In this document: piece by piece, positions 17,037 to 41,309 of the stretch
Numbering within the stretch: the stretch's first letter is position 1
Layout of the letters: the number at the start of each line of letters is the position of its first letter
From: Streptomyces violaceoruber
Lineage (GTDB): Bacteria; Actinomycetota; Actinomycetes; Streptomycetales; Streptomycetaceae
NCBI GenBank assembly: GCA_000720805.1
Contig: JODI01000073.1
Span: forward strand, 1-41,600
Reading direction: 5' to 3'
Length of the DNA stretch: 41,600 bases
Made by a program: the position numbers and the translations under genes
The notes under the pieces: model-generated
Databases searched by the model: none
Seen by the model: the letters and a program-made list of their open reading frames with translations, nothing else
Told to the model about the DNA's origin: nothing

Positions 17037-17225
17037 CGACCCTGGCCAAGCCCACGTCGGATTGGGCAGAATGCCCGTGCCGCAGGTCACCGCGCTCCCG
17101 AGTGGCGAGACAGGAGGGCCTGTGGCCGAGTGCGACCGATAAACTGTTCTCGGACGACGCCGGGCGCAGCCCCCGACCCGTCCGCCAATGATCAGCCAGC
17201 AGCCGCTGCAACCCCAGGGAGCGTT

Positions 17226-28608: not shown

Positions 28609-28696
28609 GGCGACCCCTTGACCGAGCAGGGCCGGGTGCTCGCGCAGGACGCCGACCAGGGCTGACGCGGGTCGTGCGCCACGGTCGGCGGTCTGC

Positions 28697-28755
28697 GCGC
28701 AATGAACGCCCGCCCACCCCCGATGAACGCAACGATCCTGCGGAGACGCGCAAGG
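28697..28755 (+). promoter_or_regulatory. Phased GCGCAA boxes upstream of the amino acid permease
   Basis: Three boxes GCGCAATG (28697), ACGCAACG (28727) and GCGCAAGG (28748) start 30 and 21 bp apart, close to whole helical turns. Similar boxes with the same geometry precede davA. Lrp/AsnC proteins bind such phased arrays as multimers, and the lrp gene of this transcription unit is the natural candidate. Confidence 0.55.
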
Positions 28756-28763
28756 GTGCTGCA

Positions 28764-28793
28764 TTACCCGGGCGACGCTCCGGCTCATAGGGT
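28764..28793 (+). promoter_or_regulatory. Candidate promoter of the permease-lrp unit
   Basis: TTACCC (28764-28769) and TAGGGT (28788-28793) are 18 bp apart, with the last GCGCAA box starting 16 bp before the -35. The transcript would begin near 28800 and contain a 7-bp hairpin (28817-28823 with 28832-28838) in its 5' leader. The davA promoter has identical spacing. Confidence 0.5.
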
Positions 28794-28900
28794 CATCCCC
28801 TGTACGTGGCGTGGCGGGGACCCCGCTCGGCGGGTCCCTGCTCTCGCAGGTGCGCCGCCGGTCCCCGTCGCCCCCCAGACAGCGACAAAGGAGTCAGCGC

Positions 28901-30394
28901 GTGCTCGACCATGGCGCACCCTCGCGACAGGGCAGTGCAACGGACCCCTCGTCCCCGGGGCTCGGTGCGCGTCTCATGCGTCGTAAACCGGTGGAACAGC
29001 TGGTCGCGGAGGGTGGCCAGGGCGAGGGAGGCAGCCTGCGCCGCTCCCTGGGGCTGTGGCAGCTGACCATGATCAGCATCGGGGCCACCCTCGGCACCGG
29101 CATCTTCGTCGTCCTCGGCGAGGCCGTCCCCAAGGCGGGCCCGGCCGTCACCCTCTCCTTCGTGATCGCCGGCCTCACCGCACTCTTCTCGGCGCTCTCC
29201 TACGCCGAGCTCGCGGGCACCATCCCGGTCGCCGGCTCCTCGTACTCCTACGCGTACGCGACGATGGGGGAACTGATCGCCTGGGTCTGCGGCTGGTGTC
29301 TGGTCCTGGAGTACGGCGTCTCGGTCGCCGCCGTCGCCGTCGGCTGGGGCGAGTACCTGAACGAGCTGCTCGACGGCACCATCGGCGTCACCATCCCGGA
29401 CGCGCTGTCCGCCCCGCCCGGCGACGGCGGCCTCCTCAACCTGCCGGCGCTGATCGTGGTCCTGCTGGCGATGGCCTTCCTGCTCGGCGGCGCCCGGGAG
29501 TCCGCCCGCGCCAACACCGTCATGGTCGCCGTGAAGATCGCCGCGCTGGTGCTGTTCTGCGCGATCGGCGTCCAGGGCTTCCGCTCCGGCAACTACGACC
29601 ACTTCATGCCGCTGGGCATGGCCGGCGTCAGCGCCGCGGGCGCCACCCTCTTCTTCTCGTACATCGGCTTCGACGCCGCCTCCACCGCCGGTGAGGAGGC
29701 GAAGGACGCCCAGCGCGACCTGCCGCGCGCGATCATGCTCTCCCTGGTCATCGTCACGGCCCTGTACGTCCTGGTCGCCGCCGTCGCCGTCGGCGCCAAG
29801 CCCTGGCGGGAGTTCACCGACTCCGAGGCCGCCCTCGCCCAGATCATGCGCGAGGTCACCGGGCAGGGCTTCTGGGGCACCCTGCTGGCGTTCTGCGCGG
29901 TCGTCGCCATCGCGAGCGTCGTCCTGACCGTCCTCTACGGCCAGACCCGCATCCTCTTCGCGATGTCCCGGGACGGCCTGGTGCCCAAGGTGTTCTCCCG
30001 GGTCCACCCGAAGAGCGGTGCGCCCCGCGCCAACACGCTGATCGTGTCACTGTTCTGCGGGGTGCTGGCCGCCGCTGTTCCGCTGGGCCGGCTCGCCGAC
30101 GCCACCAGCATCGGCACCCTGTTCGCCTTCGCGCTGGTCAACGTCGCGGTGGTCGTGCTGCGCCGCACGCGTCCCGACATGCCCCGCACCTTCCGGGTGC
30201 CGCTGTCACCCGTCCTGCCCGTCGTGGGGTTCGCCCTCTGCGTCTGGATGATGGGCAGCCTGTCCGCCGTCACCTGGGTGGTCTTCGGGGTCTGGATGGC
30301 CGTCGGGCTCGTGTTCTACTTCGGGTACGGCCATCGCCGCTCCCGACTCGCACCACCGGCACCACCCGCACCCCGCGCACCATCCGAGAAGTGA
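28901..30394 (+). CDS. APC-superfamily amino acid permease (cationic amino acid type)
   Basis: The 497-residue protein has about 12 transmembrane helices and the family signature IGATLGTGIFVVLGE near the first helix, with FFSYIGFDAASTAGEEAKD further in. The best resemblance is to the CAT/YfnA group of amino acid:proton symporters. The substrate is not proved. The shared promoter boxes with davAB suggest lysine or another basic amino acid. GTG 28901 follows AAAGGAG by 7 nt. It lies 10 nt upstream of the lrp gene. Confidence 0.92.
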   Translation: MLDHGAPSRQGSATDPSSPGLGARLMRRKPVEQLVAEGGQGEGGSLRRSLGLWQLTMISIGATLGTGIFVVLGEAVPKAGPAVTLSFVIAGLTALFSALSYAELAGTIPVAGSSYSYAYATMGELIAWVCGWCLVLEYGVSVAAVAVGWGEYLNELLDGTIGVTIPDALSAPPGDGGLLNLPALIVVLLAMAFLLGGARESARANTVMVAVKIAALVLFCAIGVQGFRSGNYDHFMPLGMAGVSAAGATLFFSYIGFDAASTAGEEAKDAQRDLPRAIMLSLVIVTALYVLVAAVAVGAKPWREFTDSEAALAQIMREVTGQGFWGTLLAFCAVVAIASVVLTVLYGQTRILFAMSRDGLVPKVFSRVHPKSGAPRANTLIVSLFCGVLAAAVPLGRLADATSIGTLFAFALVNVAVVVLRRTRPDMPRTFRVPLSPVLPVVGFALCVWMMGSLSAVTWVVFGVWMAVGLVFYFGYGHRRSRLAPPAPPAPRAPSEK

Positions 30395-30404
30395 TCCACC
30401 CACT

Positions 30405-30857
30405 GTGCTGAACGAACTCGACGAACGCATCGTGCACGCCCTCGCCGAGGACGCCCGCCGCTCCTACGCGGACATCGGGCACCTCGTCGGCCTGTCCGCG
30501 CCTGCCGTGAAACGGCGCGTGGACCGGCTGCGCGCCACCGGGGCCATCACCGGCTTCACCGTACGGGTGGACCCGGCGGCCCTCGGCTGGGAGACCGAGG
30601 GGTTCGTCGAGATCTACTGCCGTCGCAAGACCTCGCCGGAGACCATCCAGCGCGGTCTGGAGCGCTACCAGGAGGTGGTGGCCGCGTCGACCGTCACCGG
30701 CGACGCGGACGCGATCGTCCAGGTCTTCGCCTCCGACATGCGGCACTTCGAACGCGTCCTGGAACGGATCGCGGGGGAGCCGTTCGTGGAGCGCACGAAG
30801 TCGGTGCTGGTGCTGTCGCCGCTCCTGCGCCGGTTCTCGTCCGGGTCGCCGACCTGA
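30405..30857 (+). CDS. Lrp/AsnC-family transcriptional regulator
   Basis: The 150-residue protein has an N-terminal HTH (about 20-43, YADIGHLVGLSAPAVKRRVD) and a C-terminal RAM ligand-binding domain (about 65-140, with TVTGDADAIVQV). Such proteins form octamers that bind phased sites and respond to amino acids. It is co-transcribed with the amino acid permease (10-nt gap), and its likely sites lie before the permease and davA. It is convergent with the next gene, 12 nt between stops. Confidence 0.93.
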   Translation: MLNELDERIVHALAEDARRSYADIGHLVGLSAPAVKRRVDRLRATGAITGFTVRVDPAALGWETEGFVEIYCRRKTSPETIQRGLERYQEVVAASTVTGDADAIVQVFASDMRHFERVLERIAGEPFVERTKSVLVLSPLLRRFSSGSPT

Positions 30858-31321: not shown

Positions 31322-32062
31322 TCAGTCGGCCGTCTTCCGGGCAAGCGCGTTGTTGCCTATCGAGTTGTGCACGCTGAAACTCACCGCGTCCGAACGGTAG
31401 CGGTCGTCCGACCACTCCACCGGACGCCCTTCGCGGGTCGTGGTCACCCGCCGGACCCGCAGCAGCGGGCTGGTCCGGCGGACGCCGAGCAGTTCGGAGT
31501 CCCGGGCGCCCGCCGCCACCGCGTCGATCACGTGCTCACCGTAGGCGAAGACGAGGCCGGTGTCGTCGAGGAGGCGCTGCGTCACGGAGGGACAGTCCGG
31601 TTCGATCGTCTCGACGGCGGGGGAGATCCAGTCGGCGTAGACGGTCCGCTCCAGGAGCACCGGCTCGCCGTCCAGTCCGCGCACCCGCAGGACGTGCAGT
31701 ACCGGTGTCCCCTCGCGCAGGTGGAGGCGTACGGCGTCCTCGGTGGTCGCCGGGCGGTACTCCTGCGCCACCACGCGCCCCGTCGCCTCGCGGCCCATCG
31801 CGCGCGCCCACTGGGCGAAGCTGCGCAGTTCGGCGAAGCTCTGGCTGCGGCGGCTGGCCAGCACCACCCGGCGGGCGCCCTGGCGGGAGCCGATCAGCCC
31901 CTCGGCGGTCAGGGCCGCGATCGCCTGGCGGATCGTGCCGCGGGAGACGCCGTAGTGGGCCGCGAGGTCCGTCTCGCCGGGCAGCAGAGCGCCGACCGCG
32001 TACTCCTCGCGGTCGATCGCCCGGCGCAGTCCGTCGGCGATCTCCTCGTGTCGCGCCCCCAT
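31322..32062 (-). CDS. GntR-family (HutC/UTRA subfamily) transcriptional regulator
   Basis: The 246-residue protein has a GntR winged HTH (about 5-70, with PGETDLAAHYGVSRGTIRQA) and a UTRA effector domain (about 90-240). HutC-type members bind TTGT-(N4-6)-ACAA palindromes and answer small metabolites. The ATG at 32062 follows AGGGGAA. It is divergent from the ABC importer, with a perfect palindrome in the intergenic region, so it probably regulates both. Confidence 0.93.
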   Translation of the reverse strand: MGARHEEIADGLRRAIDREEYAVGALLPGETDLAAHYGVSRGTIRQAIAALTAEGLIGSRQGARRVVLASRRSQSFAELRSFAQWARAMGREATGRVVAQEYRPATTEDAVRLHLREGTPVLHVLRVRGLDGEPVLLERTVYADWISPAVETIEPDCPSVTQRLLDDTGLVFAYGEHVIDAVAAGARDSELLGVRRTSPLLRVRRVTTTREGRPVEWSDDRYRSDAVSFSVHNSIGNNALARKTAD

Positions 32063-32215
32063 GCTTCCCCTTCGAGTCGGCAGCTGTGCACACCGTGACC
32101 AGCCTAGTCGAGAGCGGTCGGGTGTCTGTGCTCCTCGGAACTGTGCAGGAACGTAGGGGCCAGCGTTTCGCCAGAGTTTACGAGCAGGACACCGGAGACG
32201 GTCCTACTGAGGCCA

Positions 32216-32231
32216 ACTTGTTCAGACAAGT
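32216..32231. promoter_or_regulatory. Palindromic operator ACTTGT-TCAG-ACAAGT
   Basis: A perfect 6-bp dyad with a 4-bp centre lies between the divergent GntR gene and the ABC importer. It matches the half-site pattern (TTGT...ACAA) of the HutC/GntR subfamily. It sits 113 bp before the lipoprotein gene. It is the only such palindrome noticed in this region. Confidence 0.65.
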
Positions 32232-32267
32232 CATCGCCGTTCCGCCGTGTCGTCGCCTCCGCGCCTT

Positions 32268-32309
32268 CGTTCCGTCCGTTCCTTCGTTCCCTCCGTTCCC
32301 TCCGTTCCG
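32268..32309 (+). repeat. Short TCCGTTCC-type tandem repeat
   Basis: About five imperfect copies of a 9-bp unit (CCGTTCC(C/T)T) lie in the 5' leader of the lipoprotein gene. They could form by slippage and have no evident function. Confidence 0.5.
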
Positions 32310-32343
32310 CTTCCTGCACCCTCGCGCGTCCCCTGGAGAAGCC

Positions 32344-33501
32344 GTGACCGTGTCCCTGCCGACAACAGCCGTCCGCGGCGGCGCCCTCGCCGTCGTCGCC
32401 GCGCTCGCCCTGAGCGCCTGCGGCGCCGCCCCCGACAACGCCTCGGCCACCGCCGACGGCAAGAGCGCCGCCACCGCCACCTCCCTCGCCGACTTCGGGG
32501 GGCTGGCCGCGCTGGTCAAGGCGGCGAAGAAGGAGGGCACGCTGAACGCCATCGCGCTGCCCCGCGACTGGGCCAACTACGGTGCCCTCATCGACGGCTT
32601 CCAGAAGAAGTACGGCATCAAGGTCGCGGTCGAGAACCCGGACGGCACCAGCCAGGACGAGATCAACGCCGTGACCTCCCGCAAGGGGCAGGGCCGGGCG
32701 CCGGACGTGCTCGACCTCGGCAGCTCCTTCGCGCTGAGCGCGGCCCAGCAGGGACTCCTCGCGCCGTACAAGGTGGCGGCCTTCGCCGACATTCCGGCGC
32801 AGCAGAAGGACCCGCGAGGACGCTGGTACAACGACTACGGCGGGTACATCTCCATCGGGTGCGACGCGAAGCGGGTCACCACCTGCCCCACCACCTTCAA
32901 GGACCTCCTCGAGCCGCGGTACAAGGGCCAGGTCGCGCTCAACGGCAACCCCACCAAGTCCGGTTCGGCCTTCGGCGGGGTCTGGGCGGCGGCGCTGGCG
33001 AACGGCGGCTCCTTCGACGACATCCAGCCCGGTCTCGACTTCTTCGCGAAGTTGAAGAAGAGCGGAAACTACACGCCCGTCGAGTCGACCCCGGCCACCG
33101 TCGAGAAGGGCGAGACGCCGATCAGCATCGACTGGGACTACCTCAACGCCGGGTACGCCGACGAGTTCACGTCCAAGGGCGTGCAGTGGAAGGTGTCGGT
33201 GCCGAGCGACGGCCAGTTCTCGCAGTACTACTCCCAGGCGGTCAACAAGGACGCCCCGCACCCGGCGGCCGCCCGTTTGTGGCAGGAGTACCTCTACAGC
33301 GCCGACGGCCAGAACCTGTGGCTCAAGGGATACGCCCGCCCGGCCCTGATGACCGCCATGGAGAAGGCCGGCACCCTCGACAAGACGGCCGCCGCCAAAC
33401 TGCCCGAGGTCTCCGGAACCCCCTCCTTCCCGACCGAGGCCCAGCAGGACAAGGCCAAGACGGTCCTCGGGCAGGGCTGGGCGAAGGCCGTCTCCGGATG
33501 A
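32344..33501 (+). CDS. ABC importer substrate-binding lipoprotein
   Basis: The 385-residue protein has a lipoprotein signal ending in lipobox LSAC (C26), followed by a type II periplasmic-binding fold like family 1/6 solute-binding proteins (iron, thiamine, polyamine, organophosphate or aminoethylphosphonate importers). The substrate is not clear. The GTG at 32344 follows GGAGAAG; upstream in-frame sequence is not signal-like. The stop overlaps the first permease by 4 nt (ATGA). Confidence 0.92.
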   Translation: MTVSLPTTAVRGGALAVVAALALSACGAAPDNASATADGKSAATATSLADFGGLAALVKAAKKEGTLNAIALPRDWANYGALIDGFQKKYGIKVAVENPDGTSQDEINAVTSRKGQGRAPDVLDLGSSFALSAAQQGLLAPYKVAAFADIPAQQKDPRGRWYNDYGGYISIGCDAKRVTTCPTTFKDLLEPRYKGQVALNGNPTKSGSAFGGVWAAALANGGSFDDIQPGLDFFAKLKKSGNYTPVESTPATVEKGETPISIDWDYLNAGYADEFTSKGVQWKVSVPSDGQFSQYYSQAVNKDAPHPAAARLWQEYLYSADGQNLWLKGYARPALMTAMEKAGTLDKTAAAKLPEVSGTPSFPTEAQQDKAKTVLGQGWAKAVSG

Positions 33502-34394
33502 CGGCGACGCTCCCACGGGTCGACACGGCGACCGCCGCCGCGGTGAAGCGGCGGCGCCGTCCGCTCGGCTGGCTCGCCGTAGTCCCGCTGCTCGCCTTCA
33601 CCGCGGTCGCCTTCGGGGTACCCGCCCTGGCCATGCTCGACGGCGCCTTCACCGCCAAGGACCCGGCCACGGGCGCCGGTTCGTACACCGTCGACAACCT
33701 GACCGCCTCGCTGCGGGGCGCGTATCTCACGGCTCTGCTCGGCAGCGTGAAACTGTCCGCCGTGTCGGCCGGGATCGCCTCCGTGGTCGGACTGCCCCTC
33801 GCGCAGGCCGTCGTGACCTCCCGGTTCCGCGCGCTGCGCGAGGCCGTGCTCACCGCCTCCGGGGTCCTCGCCAACTTCGGTGGTGTCCCGCTGGCCTTCG
33901 CCTTCGTCGCCACGCTCGGCAACGCCGGGGTACTGACCCGGCATCTGGGACTCACGGACAAGGGCTGGGACCTCTACAGCTTCTGGGGTCTGGTGATCGT
34001 CTACCTGTACTTCCTGATCCCGCTGATGGTGCTCACCATCACCCCGGCCCTGGACGGCCTGCGCTCCCAGTGGCGCGAGGCCGCCCAGAACAACGGCGCC
34101 ACGTCCGTGCAGTACTGGCGGCACGTCGCCCTGCCCGTCCTGCTGCCCTCGTTGCTCGGCGGCCTCGTGCTGCTGTTCGGCAGCGCCTTCGCCGCGTACG
34201 CCACCGCCGCCGCGATGGTCGGCAGCTCCATTCCGCTGGTCACCCTCCAGATCGCCGACGCCCTCTCCGGCAACGTGCTTGTCGGGCAGGAGAACGTGGC
34301 GCTCGCCCTCAGCCTCGACATGGTGCTGGTCGCGGGCCTGGTGATGGCCGTCTACCTGCCCCTGCAACGACGGAGCGCGCGATGGCTCGCCTGA
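33498..34394 (+). CDS. ABC importer permease protein 1
   Basis: The 298-residue protein has about six transmembrane helices and an EAA-type loop (EAAQNNGATSVQYWRHVALP, about 196-215) that contacts the ATPase. It overlaps the lipoprotein gene by 4 nt and the second permease by 13 nt. Its pairing with an Ugp/Pot-like partner is typical of iron, polyamine and phosphonate systems. Confidence 0.93.
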   Translation: MTATLPRVDTATAAAVKRRRRPLGWLAVVPLLAFTAVAFGVPALAMLDGAFTAKDPATGAGSYTVDNLTASLRGAYLTALLGSVKLSAVSAGIASVVGLPLAQAVVTSRFRALREAVLTASGVLANFGGVPLAFAFVATLGNAGVLTRHLGLTDKGWDLYSFWGLVIVYLYFLIPLMVLTITPALDGLRSQWREAAQNNGATSVQYWRHVALPVLLPSLLGGLVLLFGSAFAAYATAAAMVGSSIPLVTLQIADALSGNVLVGQENVALALSLDMVLVAGLVMAVYLPLQRRSARWLA

Positions 34395-35194
34395 CCCTGT
34401 GGCGGTGGGGCGTACTCGGCCTCGCCGGCCTGTACTTCCTGGTCCCGCTGGCCGCGTCCGTGGTCTTCACGGTCGACGTGCCCGGGCAGGGCATCGATCT
34501 CGACGCCTACACGCAGATCTTCTCCACCGGCGGCTTCACCTCCAGCCTGCTCCTCTCGCTGGAACTGGCCGCCGCCACCATCGTCCTCGTCCTGTTGCTG
34601 ATGGTGCCCGCCATGGTCGCCCTGCGGCTCGGCGCGTCCCGGCTGCGGCCGGTGGTCGAAGTGGTCTGCTCGCTGCCGTTGGTGGTGCCGCCGATCGCGT
34701 TCGTCGCCGGGATCGGGACGGTGCTGAAGTGGGGGCCCGAACACCTCTCCCGCACACCGCTGTTCCAGACCTTCGTGGCGATCCAGAACCCCGGCTTCCC
34801 GTTCGTCCTCGTCCTGGCGTACGTCGTGATGGCCCTGCCGTTCGTGTACCGGGCCCTGGACGCGGGGTTGCGCTCGGTCGACGTACGCACCCTCGTCGAG
34901 GCCGCCCGCAGCTGCGGGGCCAACTGGCCGCAGGCCCTCGTCCGGGCCGTGCTGCCCAACCTGCGCGGCGCGCTGCTCAACGCGTCGTTCCTCACGCTGG
35001 CCCTGGTCCTCGGCGAGTTCACCGTGGCACAGCTGCTCGGCTTCCAGCCGTTCGCGGTGTGGATCGTGAACATCAGCGGCTCGCAGGCCCAGCTGTCCGT
35101 CGCCGTGTCCGTGCTCAGCCTGCTCGTGACCTGGGTGCTGCTCCTCACCCTCGCCGGCTTCGGCGGCCGTACCCGTACTACCTCCCGGGGATGA
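34382..35194 (+). CDS. ABC importer permease protein 2
   Basis: The 270-residue protein has about six transmembrane helices and the EAA-type segment EAARSCGANWPQALVRAVLP. The two permeases form the heterodimeric channel. ATG 34382 lies inside the end of permease 1; the ATPase begins 4 nt after the stop. Confidence 0.93.
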   Translation: MARLTLWRWGVLGLAGLYFLVPLAASVVFTVDVPGQGIDLDAYTQIFSTGGFTSSLLLSLELAAATIVLVLLLMVPAMVALRLGASRLRPVVEVVCSLPLVVPPIAFVAGIGTVLKWGPEHLSRTPLFQTFVAIQNPGFPFVLVLAYVVMALPFVYRALDAGLRSVDVRTLVEAARSCGANWPQALVRAVLPNLRGALLNASFLTLALVLGEFTVAQLLGFQPFAVWIVNISGSQAQLSVAVSVLSLLVTWVLLLTLAGFGGRTRTTSRG

Positions 35195-35198
35195 ACCC

Positions 35199-36287
35199 AT
35201 GACCGTTACCACACCCGACACGGCGGCGACCGTGGAATTCCGGGGCCTGCGCAGGGAGTTCGGGCCGACCGTCGCCCTCGACGGACTCGACCTGACCGCC
35301 CGCCCCGGCGAACTCCTCGCCCTGCTCGGCCCGTCCGGCTGCGGCAAGACGACCGCGCTGCGCATGCTCGCCGGGTTCGAACACCCCGACTCCGGCGAGG
35401 TGCTGGTCGACGGCGAGGACGTCACCCGCGTCCCCGCGCACCGGCGCGACGCCGGGATGGTCTTCCAGTCGTACAGCCTCTTCCCGCATCTCGACGCGCT
35501 CGACAACGTGGCGTTCGGGCTGCGCATGCGCAAGGTCCGCACGGCCGGGCGGCGGGCCCGTGCCGCCGAGCTGCTGGAGCTGGTGGGCCTCGCCGACAAG
35601 GGCAGGAGCTTCCCGCACCAGCTCTCCGGCGGTCAGCAGCAGCGTGTCGCGCTGGCCCGGGCCCTCGCCCTGCGCCCGCGTGTGCTGTTGCTGGACGAAC
35701 CGCTGTCGGCGCTGGACGCCAAGGTGCGGCTGACGCTGCGCGAGGAGATCCGGCGGCTCCAGCGGGAGCTCGGCATCACCACCCTGTTCGTGACCCACGA
35801 CCAGGAGGAGGCGCTGTCCATGGCGGACCAGGTCGCCGTGATGCACGCCGGCCGACTCGAACAGTGCGCCGCTCCGGCCGAGTTGTACGGGCGGCCCGCC
35901 ACCGCCTTCGTCGCCGAGTTCGTGGGCACGATGAGCCGGATTCCGGGGCGGCTCGTCGAGGGCGGCGTCGAGGTGCTGGGGCAGCGGCTGCCGATCGACG
36001 GCCAGGCGCCCGAAATGTCCGCGACGTCCGAGGCGTCCGAGGCGTCCGAGGTGGACGTCCTGGTGCGGCCGGAGGCGGTGGGGGTGCGGGCGGACGACGC
36101 CGGCAGCGCGCGGGTGGTCGCCACCGCGTTCCTCGGCGCCGCCGTCCGCGTCACCGTACGGCTCGCCGACGGAACCGAGGCGAAGGCCGACCTGCCCACG
36201 CACGAGGCCGCCGCACTCGTCGCGGGCGCCGCCGTGAGCGTGTCGCTGCCGCAGCGGCCCGTGCTGGTGGCCGAACGCACCCGCTGA
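35199..36287 (+). CDS. ABC importer ATP-binding protein
   Basis: The 362-residue ATPase has Walker A GPSGCGKTT (44-52), a Q-loop (VFQSYSLFPH), signature LSGGQQQR, Walker B LLLDEPLSALD and the H-loop THDQEEA. A TOBE-type C-terminal domain (about 250-360) marks the PotA/FbpC/PhnT group. A linker before it holds a 9-bp tandem repeat (GTCCGAGGC three times, 36027-36053), giving SEASEASE. Confidence 0.95.
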   Translation: MTVTTPDTAATVEFRGLRREFGPTVALDGLDLTARPGELLALLGPSGCGKTTALRMLAGFEHPDSGEVLVDGEDVTRVPAHRRDAGMVFQSYSLFPHLDALDNVAFGLRMRKVRTAGRRARAAELLELVGLADKGRSFPHQLSGGQQQRVALARALALRPRVLLLDEPLSALDAKVRLTLREEIRRLQRELGITTLFVTHDQEEALSMADQVAVMHAGRLEQCAAPAELYGRPATAFVAEFVGTMSRIPGRLVEGGVEVLGQRLPIDGQAPEMSATSEASEASEVDVLVRPEAVGVRADDAGSARVVATAFLGAAVRVTVRLADGTEAKADLPTHEAAALVAGAAVSVSLPQRPVLVAERTR

Positions 36288-38606: not shown

Positions 38607-38667
38607 GCGCAACGAATCGCCGTCGCTGCGCAAGTGCACGCAACAAACCGCCCACCGGCGCGCAACG
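38607..38667 (+). promoter_or_regulatory. Phased GCGCAA boxes upstream of davA
   Basis: Boxes GCGCAACG (38607), GCGCAAGT (38628), ACGCAACA (38638) and GCGCAACG (38660) start 21, 10 and 22 bp apart, all close to multiples of one helical turn. The last box starts 16 bp before the -35, exactly as before the permease. This fits binding by the Lrp/AsnC protein. Confidence 0.6.
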
Positions 38668-38675
38668 GCTGCTTC

Positions 38676-38705
38676 TTGTCGGCCCGAGCCCGCCGCCCGT
38701 ACCGT
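38676..38705 (+). promoter_or_regulatory. Candidate promoter of davAB
   Basis: TTGTCG (38676-38681) and TACCGT (38700-38705) are 18 bp apart, giving a start near 38712 and a 47-nt leader. Spacing from the last GCGCAA box is identical to that of the permease promoter. Confidence 0.5.
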
Positions 38706-38758: not shown

Positions 38759-39547
38759 ATGCGCACCGCCCTGCTCCAGAGCTCCGGCCGCCCCGGCTCG
38801 ATCGCCGCGAACCTCAAGGTTCTCGACGAGGCCGCGGGCCGGGCCGCCGCCGCGGGCGCCGGGCTGCTGGCCGCGCCGGAGATGTTCCTCACCGGGTACG
38901 CGATCGGCGACGACATCGCCCGTCTCGCCGAGCCCGCCGACGGCGACTCGGCGGACGCGATCGCCGAACTCGCCACCCGGCACGGCCTGGCCGTCGCCTA
39001 CGGCTACCCGGAACGCGCCGGCGAGACGGTGTACAACTCCGCCCAGCTGATCTCCGCCGACGGCACCCGCCTGGCCAACTACCGCAAGACCCACCTCTTC
39101 GGCTGCTTCGAGCGCGACCACTTCACGCCGGGAGAGCGGCCGGTCGTCCAGGCGGAGCTGGGCGGACTGACCGTCGGACTGATGATCTGCTACGACGTCG
39201 AGTTCCCGGAGAACGTCCGCGCCCACGCCCTGGCCGGCACCGATCTCCTCCTGGTGCCGACCGCACAGATGCACCCGTTCCAGTTCGTCGCCGAGTCGGT
39301 CGTACCGGTGCGCGCCTTCGAGAACCAGATGTACGTCGCGTACGTCAACAGGGTCGGCCAGGAAGGGGAGTTCGAGTTCGTCGGCCTCTCCGCGCTCGCC
39401 GGACCCGACGGGGTCGCCCGCACCCGGGCCGGCCGTGGCGACGAACTGCTGCTCGCGGACGTCGACCCCGCCTTCCTCGCCGCCTCCCGCGAGGCGAACC
39501 CGTATCTGCGGGACCGGCGTCCCGGCCTCTACGGGTCCCTGATCTGA
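38759..39547 (+). CDS. davA: 5-aminovaleramide amidohydrolase (nitrilase superfamily)
   Basis: The 262-residue C-N hydrolase converts 5-aminovaleramide to 5-aminovalerate. The catalytic triad E41 (APEMFLTGY), K110 (YRKTHLF) and C144 (ICYDVEFPE) is intact, and these segments match Pseudomonas DavA closely, as does the length. It lies 49 bp upstream of the monooxygenase that makes its substrate. The ATG follows GTGAGGA. Confidence 0.9.
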   Translation: MRTALLQSSGRPGSIAANLKVLDEAAGRAAAAGAGLLAAPEMFLTGYAIGDDIARLAEPADGDSADAIAELATRHGLAVAYGYPERAGETVYNSAQLISADGTRLANYRKTHLFGCFERDHFTPGERPVVQAELGGLTVGLMICYDVEFPENVRAHALAGTDLLLVPTAQMHPFQFVAESVVPVRAFENQMYVAYVNRVGQEGEFEFVGLSALAGPDGVARTRAGRGDELLLADVDPAFLAASREANPYLRDRRPGLYGSLI

Positions 39548-39596: not shown

Positions 39597-41309
39597 ATGA
39601 CGTCCACCGTGCCCAACGCCGTCGAGCACGCTGACGAGCAGCAGCCGCCGATCACCATGTTCGGTCCGGACTTCCCGTACGCCTACGACGACTTCCTCGC
39701 CCACCCGGCGGGCCTCGGCCAGATCCCGGCGACCGAGCACGGCACCGAGGTCGCGGTCGTCGGCGGTGGTCTGTCCGGCATCGTGGCCGCGTACGAGCTG
39801 ATGAAGATGGGCCTCAAGCCCGTCGTGTACGAGGCCGACCGGATCGGTGGGCGCCTGCGGACCGTCGGCTTCGAGGGGTGCGACCCGTCCCTCACCGCCG
39901 AGATGGGCGCGATGCGTTTCCCGCCGTCCTCCACGGCCCTGCGGCACTACATCGACCTGGTGGGCCTCACGACCCGCCCCTTCCCCAACCCCCTTGCCGA
40001 GGTGACCCCTTCGACCGTCGTCGACCTCAAGGGCGAGTCCCACTACGCCGAGACGATCGACGACCTGCCCCAGGTCTACCGGGACGTCGCCGCGGCCTGG
40101 AACAGGTGCCTCGAAGAGGGCGCCGACTTCTCCGGGATGAACCAGGCCATGCGCGAGCGTGATGTGCCGCGCATCCGGGAGATCTGGGCCAGGCTCGTCG
40201 AGAAGCTCGACAACCAGACCTTCTACGGCTTCCTCTGCGACTCCGAGGCCTTCAGGTCCTTCCGGCACCGCGAGATCTTCGGCCAGGTCGGATTCGGCAC
40301 CGGCGGATGGGACACCGACTTCCCCAACTCCATCCTGGAGATCCTCCGGGTCGTCTACACCGAGGCCGACGACCACCACCGCGGCATCGTCGGAGGGTCC
40401 CAGCAACTGCCGCTCAGGCTCTGGGAGCGCGAGCCGGAGAAGATCGTGCACTGGCCGTACGGGACCTCCCTCGCGAGCCTGCACCCGAACGGCGAACCCC
40501 GCCCCGCCGTCACCCGCCTGCACCGCACGGCCGGCAACCGGATCACCGTGACCGACGCCGACGGTGACATCCGCACCTACCGGGCGGCCGTCTTCACCGC
40601 CCAGTCCTGGATGCTCCTGTCCAAGATCGACTGCGACGACTCGCTCTTCCCGATCGACCACTGGACCGCGATCGAGCGCACCCACTACATGGAGAGCTCA
40701 AAGCTGTTCGTCCCCGTGGACCGGCCCTTCTGGCTGGACAAGGCCGTCGACGACAGGGGAATTCCGACCGGGCGGGACGTCATGTCGATGACGCTCACCG
40801 ACCGTATGACCCGAGGCACCTACCTCCTCGACGACGGCCCGGACCGGCCCGCCGTCATCTGCCTCTCCTACACCTGGTGCGACGACAGCCTGAAGTGGCT
40901 GCCGCTGTCCGCGAACGAGCGGATGGAGGTCATGCTGAAGTCGCTCGGCGAGATCTATCCGAAGGTCGACATCCGCAAGCACATCATCGGCAGCCCGGTC
41001 ACCGTCTCCTGGGAGAACGAGCCGTACTTCATGGGCGCGTTCAAGGCCAACCTGCCCGGCCACTACCGCTACCAGCGGCGCCTGTTCACCCACTTCATGC
41101 AGGACCGGCTGCCCGAGGACAAGCGGGGCGTCTTCCTCGCCGGCGACGACATCTCGTGGACGGCCGGCTGGGCCGAGGGCGCCGTGCAGACCGCGTTGAA
41201 CGCGGTGTGGGGCGTCATGCACCACTTCGGCGGGACGACCGACCCGACGAACCCGGGCCCGGGGGACGTGTACGACGAGATCGCGCCGGTCGAGCTCCCG
41301 GAGGACTAG
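39597..41309 (+). CDS. davB: L-lysine 2-monooxygenase (flavin amine oxidase family)
   Basis: The 570-residue flavoenzyme converts L-lysine and O2 to 5-aminovaleramide, CO2 and water. The FAD-binding dinucleotide fold VAVVGGGLSG (52-61) followed by VVYEADRIGGR (76-86), a substrate region and a C-terminal FAD segment (FLAGDDISWTAGWAEGAVQT) are present. N-terminal ITMFGPDFPYAYDDF and HPAGLG match Pseudomonas DavB very closely, which favours lysine over tryptophan or phenylalanine monooxygenase. The ATG follows AAGGAG by 10 nt. Further steps (davT/davD) are not in this window. Confidence 0.9.
   Translation: MTSTVPNAVEHADEQQPPITMFGPDFPYAYDDFLAHPAGLGQIPATEHGTEVAVVGGGLSGIVAAYELMKMGLKPVVYEADRIGGRLRTVGFEGCDPSLTAEMGAMRFPPSSTALRHYIDLVGLTTRPFPNPLAEVTPSTVVDLKGESHYAETIDDLPQVYRDVAAAWNRCLEEGADFSGMNQAMRERDVPRIREIWARLVEKLDNQTFYGFLCDSEAFRSFRHREIFGQVGFGTGGWDTDFPNSILEILRVVYTEADDHHRGIVGGSQQLPLRLWEREPEKIVHWPYGTSLASLHPNGEPRPAVTRLHRTAGNRITVTDADGDIRTYRAAVFTAQSWMLLSKIDCDDSLFPIDHWTAIERTHYMESSKLFVPVDRPFWLDKAVDDRGIPTGRDVMSMTLTDRMTRGTYLLDDGPDRPAVICLSYTWCDDSLKWLPLSANERMEVMLKSLGEIYPKVDIRKHIIGSPVTVSWENEPYFMGAFKANLPGHYRYQRRLFTHFMQDRLPEDKRGVFLAGDDISWTAGWAEGAVQTALNAVWGVMHHFGGTTDPTNPGPGDVYDEIAPVELPED

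Follow-up and report, generated by a model that had tools for sequence, protein, structure and literature searches.

How a bacterium would coordinate the import of an amino acid with its oxidative breakdown, when the genes for the two tasks lie apart on the chromosome, is the question raised by this locus of Streptomyces violaceoruber. In the window, meaning the whole stretch of 41,600 nucleotides analysed here, an amino-acid permease gene is followed by a gene for an Lrp/AsnC regulator, which starts 10 bp past the permease stop codon. The davA gene lies about 8 kb from lrp, and the davA and permease promoters are about 10 kb apart. A preliminary description of this DNA had noticed phased GCGCAA boxes in both promoters and ascribed them to the Lrp protein. 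The reading preferred here, with a probability of roughly 0.8, is that the boxes would be the sites of the permease-linked Lrp, which would jointly control import and oxidative breakdown.

Genes and promoter boxes of the locus

The genes of the locus and the elements of its two promoters are collected in Table 1. The permease is read from a GTG start, picked by eye from a conserved AAGGAG and a conserved start. The protein encoded behind it holds both domains of the Lrp/AsnC family above cut-off, an AsnC-type helix-turn-helix (PF13404) and a ligand-binding domain (PF01037). The gap between davA and davB is 49 bp, and the carbon-nitrogen hydrolase (PF00795) is thus encoded together with the flavin enzyme. 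Neither DavA nor DavB belongs to an NCBIfam family above its cut-off. DavA of the window is 99% identical to DavA of S. cellulosae NRRL B-2687.

Table 1. Genes and promoter elements of the davA and permease transcription units, in window coordinates
Feature	Position	Strand	Basis or remark
APC-family amino-acid permease	28901..30394	+	PF13520 and TIGR00909 above cut-off; conserved start region
Lrp/AsnC regulator, proposed box binder	30405..30857	+	PF13404 and PF01037 above cut-off
davA, carbon-nitrogen hydrolase (probable 5-aminovaleramidase)	38759..39547	+	PF00795
davB, flavin amino-acid monooxygenase/oxidase (probable lysine 2-monooxygenase)	39597..41309	+	PF01593
Permease box A, worn here (GCGCCA)	28676..28681	+	Intact in most relatives' permease promoters
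Permease box B, GCGCAA	28697..28702	+	Read in the sequence
Permease box C, ACGCAA; in relatives often CGCAA-N5-TTGCG	28727..28732	+	-21 from box D
Permease box D, GCGCAA	28748..28753	+	Anchor of the permease geometry count
Permease -35-like hexamer TTACCC	28764..28769	+	Begins 16 bp past the box D start
Permease -10-like hexamer TAGGGT	28788..28793	+	Read in the sequence; leader alignment
davA box 1, GCGCAA, opening the conserved GCGCAACGAATCGCCG	38607..38612	+	Conservation
GCGCAA claimed as a davA box, probably fortuitous	38628..38633	+	Not conserved
davA box 2, ACGCAA	38638..38643	+	22 bp before box 3
davA box 3, GCGCAA	38660..38665	+	GCGCAA in 72 and ACGCAA in 6 of 81
davA -35-like hexamer TTGTCG	38676..38681	+	Begins 16 bp past the box 3 start; within the anchor
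davA -10-like hexamer TACCGT	38700..38705	+	TACC columns 0.92-1.0

The preliminary description had listed seven GCGCAA boxes. All of them lie at the coordinates it gave, five reading GCGCAA and two (38638 and 28727) ACGCAA. Three of its four davA boxes (38607, 38638, and 38660) are conserved. The remaining one, at 38628, was dropped as unconserved, since among the best 80 of 544 relatives it is seen, by eye, only in locus L001, whose DavA is 99% identical. The three permease boxes (28697, 28727, and 28748) hold, and most relatives have four, with the extra one at the place of 28676. The near-whole-turn spacing claimed for both promoters is retained in the conserved steps of 31/22 bp at davA and 30/21 bp at the permease, and the davA steps of 21 and 10 bp fall with 38628. 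With 38628 removed, the match between the two promoters is closer than had been described (31/22 vs 30/21 bp). The downstream geometry is exactly as described: in both promoters the last box starts 16 bp before the -35-like hexamer, which starts 24 bp before a TANNGT hexamer (38660/38676/38700 and 28748/28764/28788).

Other features of the window were recorded in passing. Within 31322-36287 of the window, a GntR/UTRA regulator resembling PhnF (125.8 bits, below the cut-off of 156.8) is encoded near ABC transporter genes, perhaps for phosphonate uptake; many relatives lack this regulator in the interval from lrp to davA. The permease leader (window 28794-28900) has a mean column identity of 80% over the 24 promoters with a leader and contains a possible stem, in which none of 28 predicted pairs changed on both sides; no Rfam family reached its gathering score in this leader. 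The Rfam Streptomyces-metK RNA (RF03063) is found at 17105-17221 on the forward strand, with 124.2 bits.

Conservation of the box arrangement

In a GC-rich genome, boxes of this kind could be a chance cluster, and this explanation can draw on the fact that lone GCGCAA occurs at chance level in the window (24 found, against a mean of 21.99 in shuffles) and that one of the seven boxes is unconserved. The arrangement, and not the single hexamer, is what matters. The triple pattern CGCAA-N24-26-CGCAA-N15-17-CGCAA occurs twice in the window and never in 100 shuffles. Throughout the 10.5-Mb genome to which the window belongs, it is found in three places, namely the davA promoter, the permease promoter, and one site on contig C158, and its reversed control is found in none. 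The match on C158 was rejected as a regulon site, lying as it does inside a 519-codon open frame. The pattern is present in 133 of 150 Streptomyces genomes (this one included), against 27 matches of the reversed control in 24 of the 150, as counted by us from the table. Judged by eye, most of the matches listed have the gaps of the davA promoter (26/17) or those of the permease promoter (25/16), and a few resemble chance matches. Given these counts and a spacing that is fixed across relatives, a chance origin has practically no probability left, and conservation has already refuted it.

The conservation at davA was followed in 81 sequences, the window and the best 80 of 544 relatives, which are hence close (DavA 86-99% identical). 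Among them, box 2 lies 22 bp ahead of box 3 in 80, and the distance from box 1 to box 2 is 31 bp in 74 and 32 bp in one, with six missing the expression. One miss, L061, is due to a misplaced anchor and was counted as such though its boxes are visible; it was excluded from alignment A2. All three boxes have the strict form RCGCAA in 66 of the 81, and when only CAA is asked for 53 bp ahead of box 3, where box 1 is expected, all 81 comply. The anchor fixed the AA of box 3 together with TTG[TC] of the -35, so conservation there is partly by construction, as it is for the letters of box 2 in the column table, whose 79 rows were selected for CGCA in that box. These choices do not touch box 1 or the -10, and box 1 serves as the independent measure: its AACGAATC columns stand at 0.99-1.0, compared with around 0.4-0.7 upstream of it and over much of the interval that separates it from box 2.

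The permease promoter behaves in the same manner in 39 promoters (40 were found, and L001 was left out because of a contig edge). Counted from box D, box C lies at -21 in all 39, and box B, by a permissive expression, at -51 in 37 and -52 in two. Box A is present in 32, at -72 in 31 and -71 in one, and seven promoters, including that of the window, are without it. The usual layout is therefore 21-30-21 bp. Box spacing is fixed at both davA (81 sequences) and the permease (39 promoters) while the flanks vary, and the conserved steps (21/30/21 and 31/22 bp) amount to whole turns, two or three, as is typical of Lrp/AsnC sites. Sites of the Lrp/AsnC type are (semi-)palindromes of some 13-15 bp with an AT-rich centre. 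Self-symmetry over 15 bp is clear in permease box C (r 0.61) and davA box 1 (r 0.60), and the other five of the seven aligned boxes, at 0.19-0.39, show no clear symmetry. The conservation in orthologous promoters that the preliminary description had named as a check is thus strongly borne out at both promoters, and its proposal of one regulator common to the two is, because of this, well supported.

The davB gene is found in 34 of 246 genomes of the class, 13 of which are outside Streptomyces, and nine of these 13 became loci and were read. In six of the nine, davA stands beside davB, and their promoters, read by eye, show a box pair 31 bp apart in four cases, a pair 22 bp apart in one, and none clear in one. 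An Lrp of 59-61% identity is encoded just downstream, on the opposite strand, in five of the nine loci.

The candidate regulator

The genome encodes many proteins of the family (22 Lrp domain matches, 20 of them over cut-off), and the permease-linked Lrp is the best candidate for binding the boxes. Its gene is present in all 47 davA loci in which the upstream guaB1 is in view, where the permease is found in 40. Among the davA loci of the best 80 of 544 relatives, Lrp is seen in 62; in the other 18 the fetched stretch holds no Lrp, and the linkage lies outside the view. Of the neighbours measured, Lrp has the highest median identity (95.3%), followed by davB (93.3%), davA (89.3%), and the permease (71.8%). 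The seven loci without permease retain both Lrp and the davA boxes (one with a worn box 1), and the boxes that would lie between guaB1 and lrp have been lost there or have decayed, within the last 420 bases of the intervals. In four loci (L015, L024, L065, and L071), remnants resembling the 3' end of the permease gene are seen by eye between guaB1 and lrp, suggesting a deletion of the permease with retention of lrp.

Lrp and davB also occur together. In a set of 24 genomes, Lrp (at least 78% identity) and davB (at least 80%) are both present in the same 19 and both absent from the other five; 17 of the 24 had been chosen as lacking the exact triple pattern, and two of the five double absences are incomplete assemblies. 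The davA promoter is readable in 18 of the 19 genomes, and each of these has at least two boxes recognisable by eye; in some, L108 and L112 among them, the third has worn or is lacking. Three genomes, L115, L116, and L117, contain a second davB-like gene elsewhere (62-65% identity), whose product may act on another amino acid; that of L115 belongs to no NCBIfam family above cut-off. In another genus, a davB relative (64%; G269:C25:5599-7251) carries one in-frame TGA.

A different regulator could bind the boxes instead, such as GlnR or the product of the nearby GntR gene. The latter was dropped as a candidate, as its gene is present in only 7 of the 47 neighbourhoods. The consensus of GlnR is GTNAC-N6-GaAAC, and matches with at most one mismatch to GTNAC-N6-GNAAC are found in 45 of 81 davA promoters, against 25 of 405 random stretches. 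This loose pattern is partly satisfied by the boxes alone, and the test was redone with match positions and a stricter pattern. The best loose match includes the box letters GCAAC or their complement in 67 of the 81 davA promoters, typically at box 3, so that the boxes themselves feed the match. The enrichment at davA persists under the stricter pattern, GTNAC-N6-GAAAC, from which 55 of 81 promoters and 82 of 405 random stretches deviate by at most two mismatches. The permease promoter stays near background (10 of 39 by the same strict measure), and three or four phased boxes are not accounted for by GlnR. The overlap of the matches with the boxes and the background level at the permease argue that the layout is not explained by GlnR. 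At davA, the partial match at box 3 may nevertheless provide some GlnR input. As the binder of the boxes, another regulator is improbable.

The strongest indirect evidence for binding of the boxes by an Lrp-family protein comes from a sister system. A paralogue of the permease-linked Lrp, about 55% identical, is encoded directly before ddaH, also in the own genome of the window, on contig C159. The ddaH product scores above the cut-off of the dimethylargininase profile (NCBIfam DiMArgaseDdahMtb) for L118 and L131 and was judged by eye for L119-L121; in L118, ddaH is followed by an ornithine aminotransferase gene (TIGR01885). Counted from the -35, four of the five ddaH promoters have CGCA[AG] boxes at -68/-37/-16 and the fifth at -37/-16, followed by TTGT and a TACC-type -10; the davA boxes lie at -69/-38/-16. 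The sequence AVKRRVDR, in the helix-turn-helix region, is common to the two kinds of Lrp. Within the ligand domain, the davAB-linked proteins read TG[DE]ADA (seven usable rows, those of L177 and L179, taken from the wrong strand, being left out of alignment A4) and the ddaH-linked ones TGGADA (five rows). Linkage, co-occurrence, and the promoter layout of the sister Lrp thus support the permease-linked Lrp as the predicted shared regulator.

The sister promoter was also found by a search that was blind to it. A sequence-only model was built from the davA and permease promoters alone, and 150 of 18356 first-look candidates in the own genome were scored with it. The davA and permease promoter sites reach 64.5 and 59.9 bits, and the ddaH promoter is third best in the genome (22.3 bits, E 0.001). 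The fourth match, before an ammonium transporter gene, has an E of 0.03, and nothing convincing as a further regulon member emerged beyond davA, the permease, and ddaH among the 150 candidates scored. This ammonium transporter (PF00909) promoter, at about 1500-1550 of L148 (C2:107275-107331), has two ACGCAA 31 bp apart, by eye, and scores 17.5 bits. It also fits a loose GlnR pattern with a single mismatch, and is therefore probably a GlnR promoter.

There is about an even chance that a paralogous clade of actinobacterial Lrp proteins serves different amino acids with one fixed layout, in which the dimer sites follow each other at about 31 and 21-22 bp and the last starts 16 bp before the -35. 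If so, effector specificity would diverge while the spacing of the sites stays frozen. For many Lrp proteins so far unstudied, the layout alone could then predict the targets and, taken together with the adjacent genes, the ligands as well. As a second case of nearly the same geometry, ddaH makes it possible to ask how spacing, rather than sequence, sets control by Lrp.

Proposed control, ligand, and relation to known systems

We infer binding by the permease-linked Lrp, a direction of control, and a ligand along the following lines. Each box would represent the site of one Lrp dimer, often with a degenerate second half, and the distances between sites, 21/30/21 bp for the permease and 31/22 bp for davA, would correspond to roughly two, three, and two helical turns. 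Steps of whole turns would place several dimers on one face of the DNA, able to wrap it, and a spacing of Lrp sites by two or three turns is described in the available portion of PMC2995911. The last 15-bp site extends right up to the -35 hexamer, and nothing lies over the -10 or the start site. A site that ends at the -35 without covering the -10 or the start is more usual for activators. This position favours activation by contact with the polymerase, which is rather likely from the promoter layout: Lrp bound at the last site would contact RNA polymerase and turn on two weak promoters. The trigger would be lysine or an early breakdown product, and the outcome the joint control of import by the permease and of oxidative breakdown by DavB and then DavA.

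The same Lrp might instead repress both promoters until relieved by its ligand, or work in both modes according to its oligomer state. Lrp proteins are known to act either way, with an oligomer state that shifts with the ligand (PMC2995911, in the part available). The free -10 and start site beyond the last Lrp site speak against repression, which is possible and clearly the less likely direction.

As for the ligand, the best solved relative of DavB is 3we0, an L-amino acid oxidase/monooxygenase, with 778.8 bits, the next one following at 197.5, and 3we0 is taken by us to act on lysine. The best solved relative of Lrp is PH1519, presumably FL11 of Pyrococcus, with 63.9 bits. FL11 is lysine-responsive according to the available part of PMC2995911. 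On the strength of the closest solved relative of DavB and, weakly, of PH1519/FL11, lysine or an early product is a likely trigger. The resemblance to PH1519 does not by itself decide the ligand, as a second group of solved proteins follows closely with 62.5 bits.

The main alternative to lysine is arginine: Lrp would bind the boxes as proposed, DavB would be an arginine 2-monooxygenase, and the pathway and ligand would concern arginine or another basic amino acid. Monooxygenation of arginine occurs in Streptomyces, and a paper reportedly deals with arginine-derived guanidinobutyramide. The permease family is not substrate-specific, and DavB fits no NCBIfam family above cut-off. On the other side stand the closeness of DavB to 3we0, the fact that a separate Lrp gene adjoins the arginine-breakdown gene ddaH in this genome, and the proteins conserved downstream of davB, among which no ureohydrolase was recognised by eye. 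Arginine is thus unlikely, and lysine is kept as the probable ligand.

Under this lysine-centred reading, two target promoters, a predicted DNA site, and a likely ligand can be assigned to one of about twenty unstudied Lrp-family genes. Several Streptomyces products are fed by lysine, so that the way in which its breakdown is controlled may matter for strain engineering.

The probable local Lrp/AsnC regulon of davAB and a permease is apparently unreported so far, as searches of the open literature, judged from titles and the openings of abstracts, showed no report of this Lrp, its promoter, or its motif in Streptomyces. Local catabolic regulators of the family include AldR with ald, BkdR with bkd, and PutR with put. 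BarR is reportedly another local regulator of this type. Like them, the system described here has the regulator gene beside breakdown and uptake genes, several phased sites ahead of the promoter, and an amino-acid effector (features given in the available part of PMC2995911), with site binding and effector being predictions in the present case. It differs from them in its davAB-type pathway and permease, in its CGCAA-based sites, and in its two promoters about 10 kb apart. By sequence, FL11 (PH1519) shares family and fold with the Lrp studied here (63.9 bits), but it is an archaeal global regulator with about 200 transcription units predicted, according to the same portion of PMC2995911. SSP_Lrp of Streptomyces spiramyceticus is also a Streptomyces regulator of the Lrp family; its sites, however, were looked for by means of the E. 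coli-type YAGHAWATTWTDCTR motif, and the regulon has to do with spiramycin, as stated in the accessible text of PMC6379999. In Mycobacterium tuberculosis, Rv2324 adjoins the arginine cluster Rv2323c-rocDE (PMC4569260, in the part available), just as the sister Lrp adjoins ddaH and rocD; that system resembles the ddaH-linked paralogue and not the davAB system. Local Lrp regulons are a known kind, and it is the layout, nearly fixed across two paralogous systems, that is the part most worth following.
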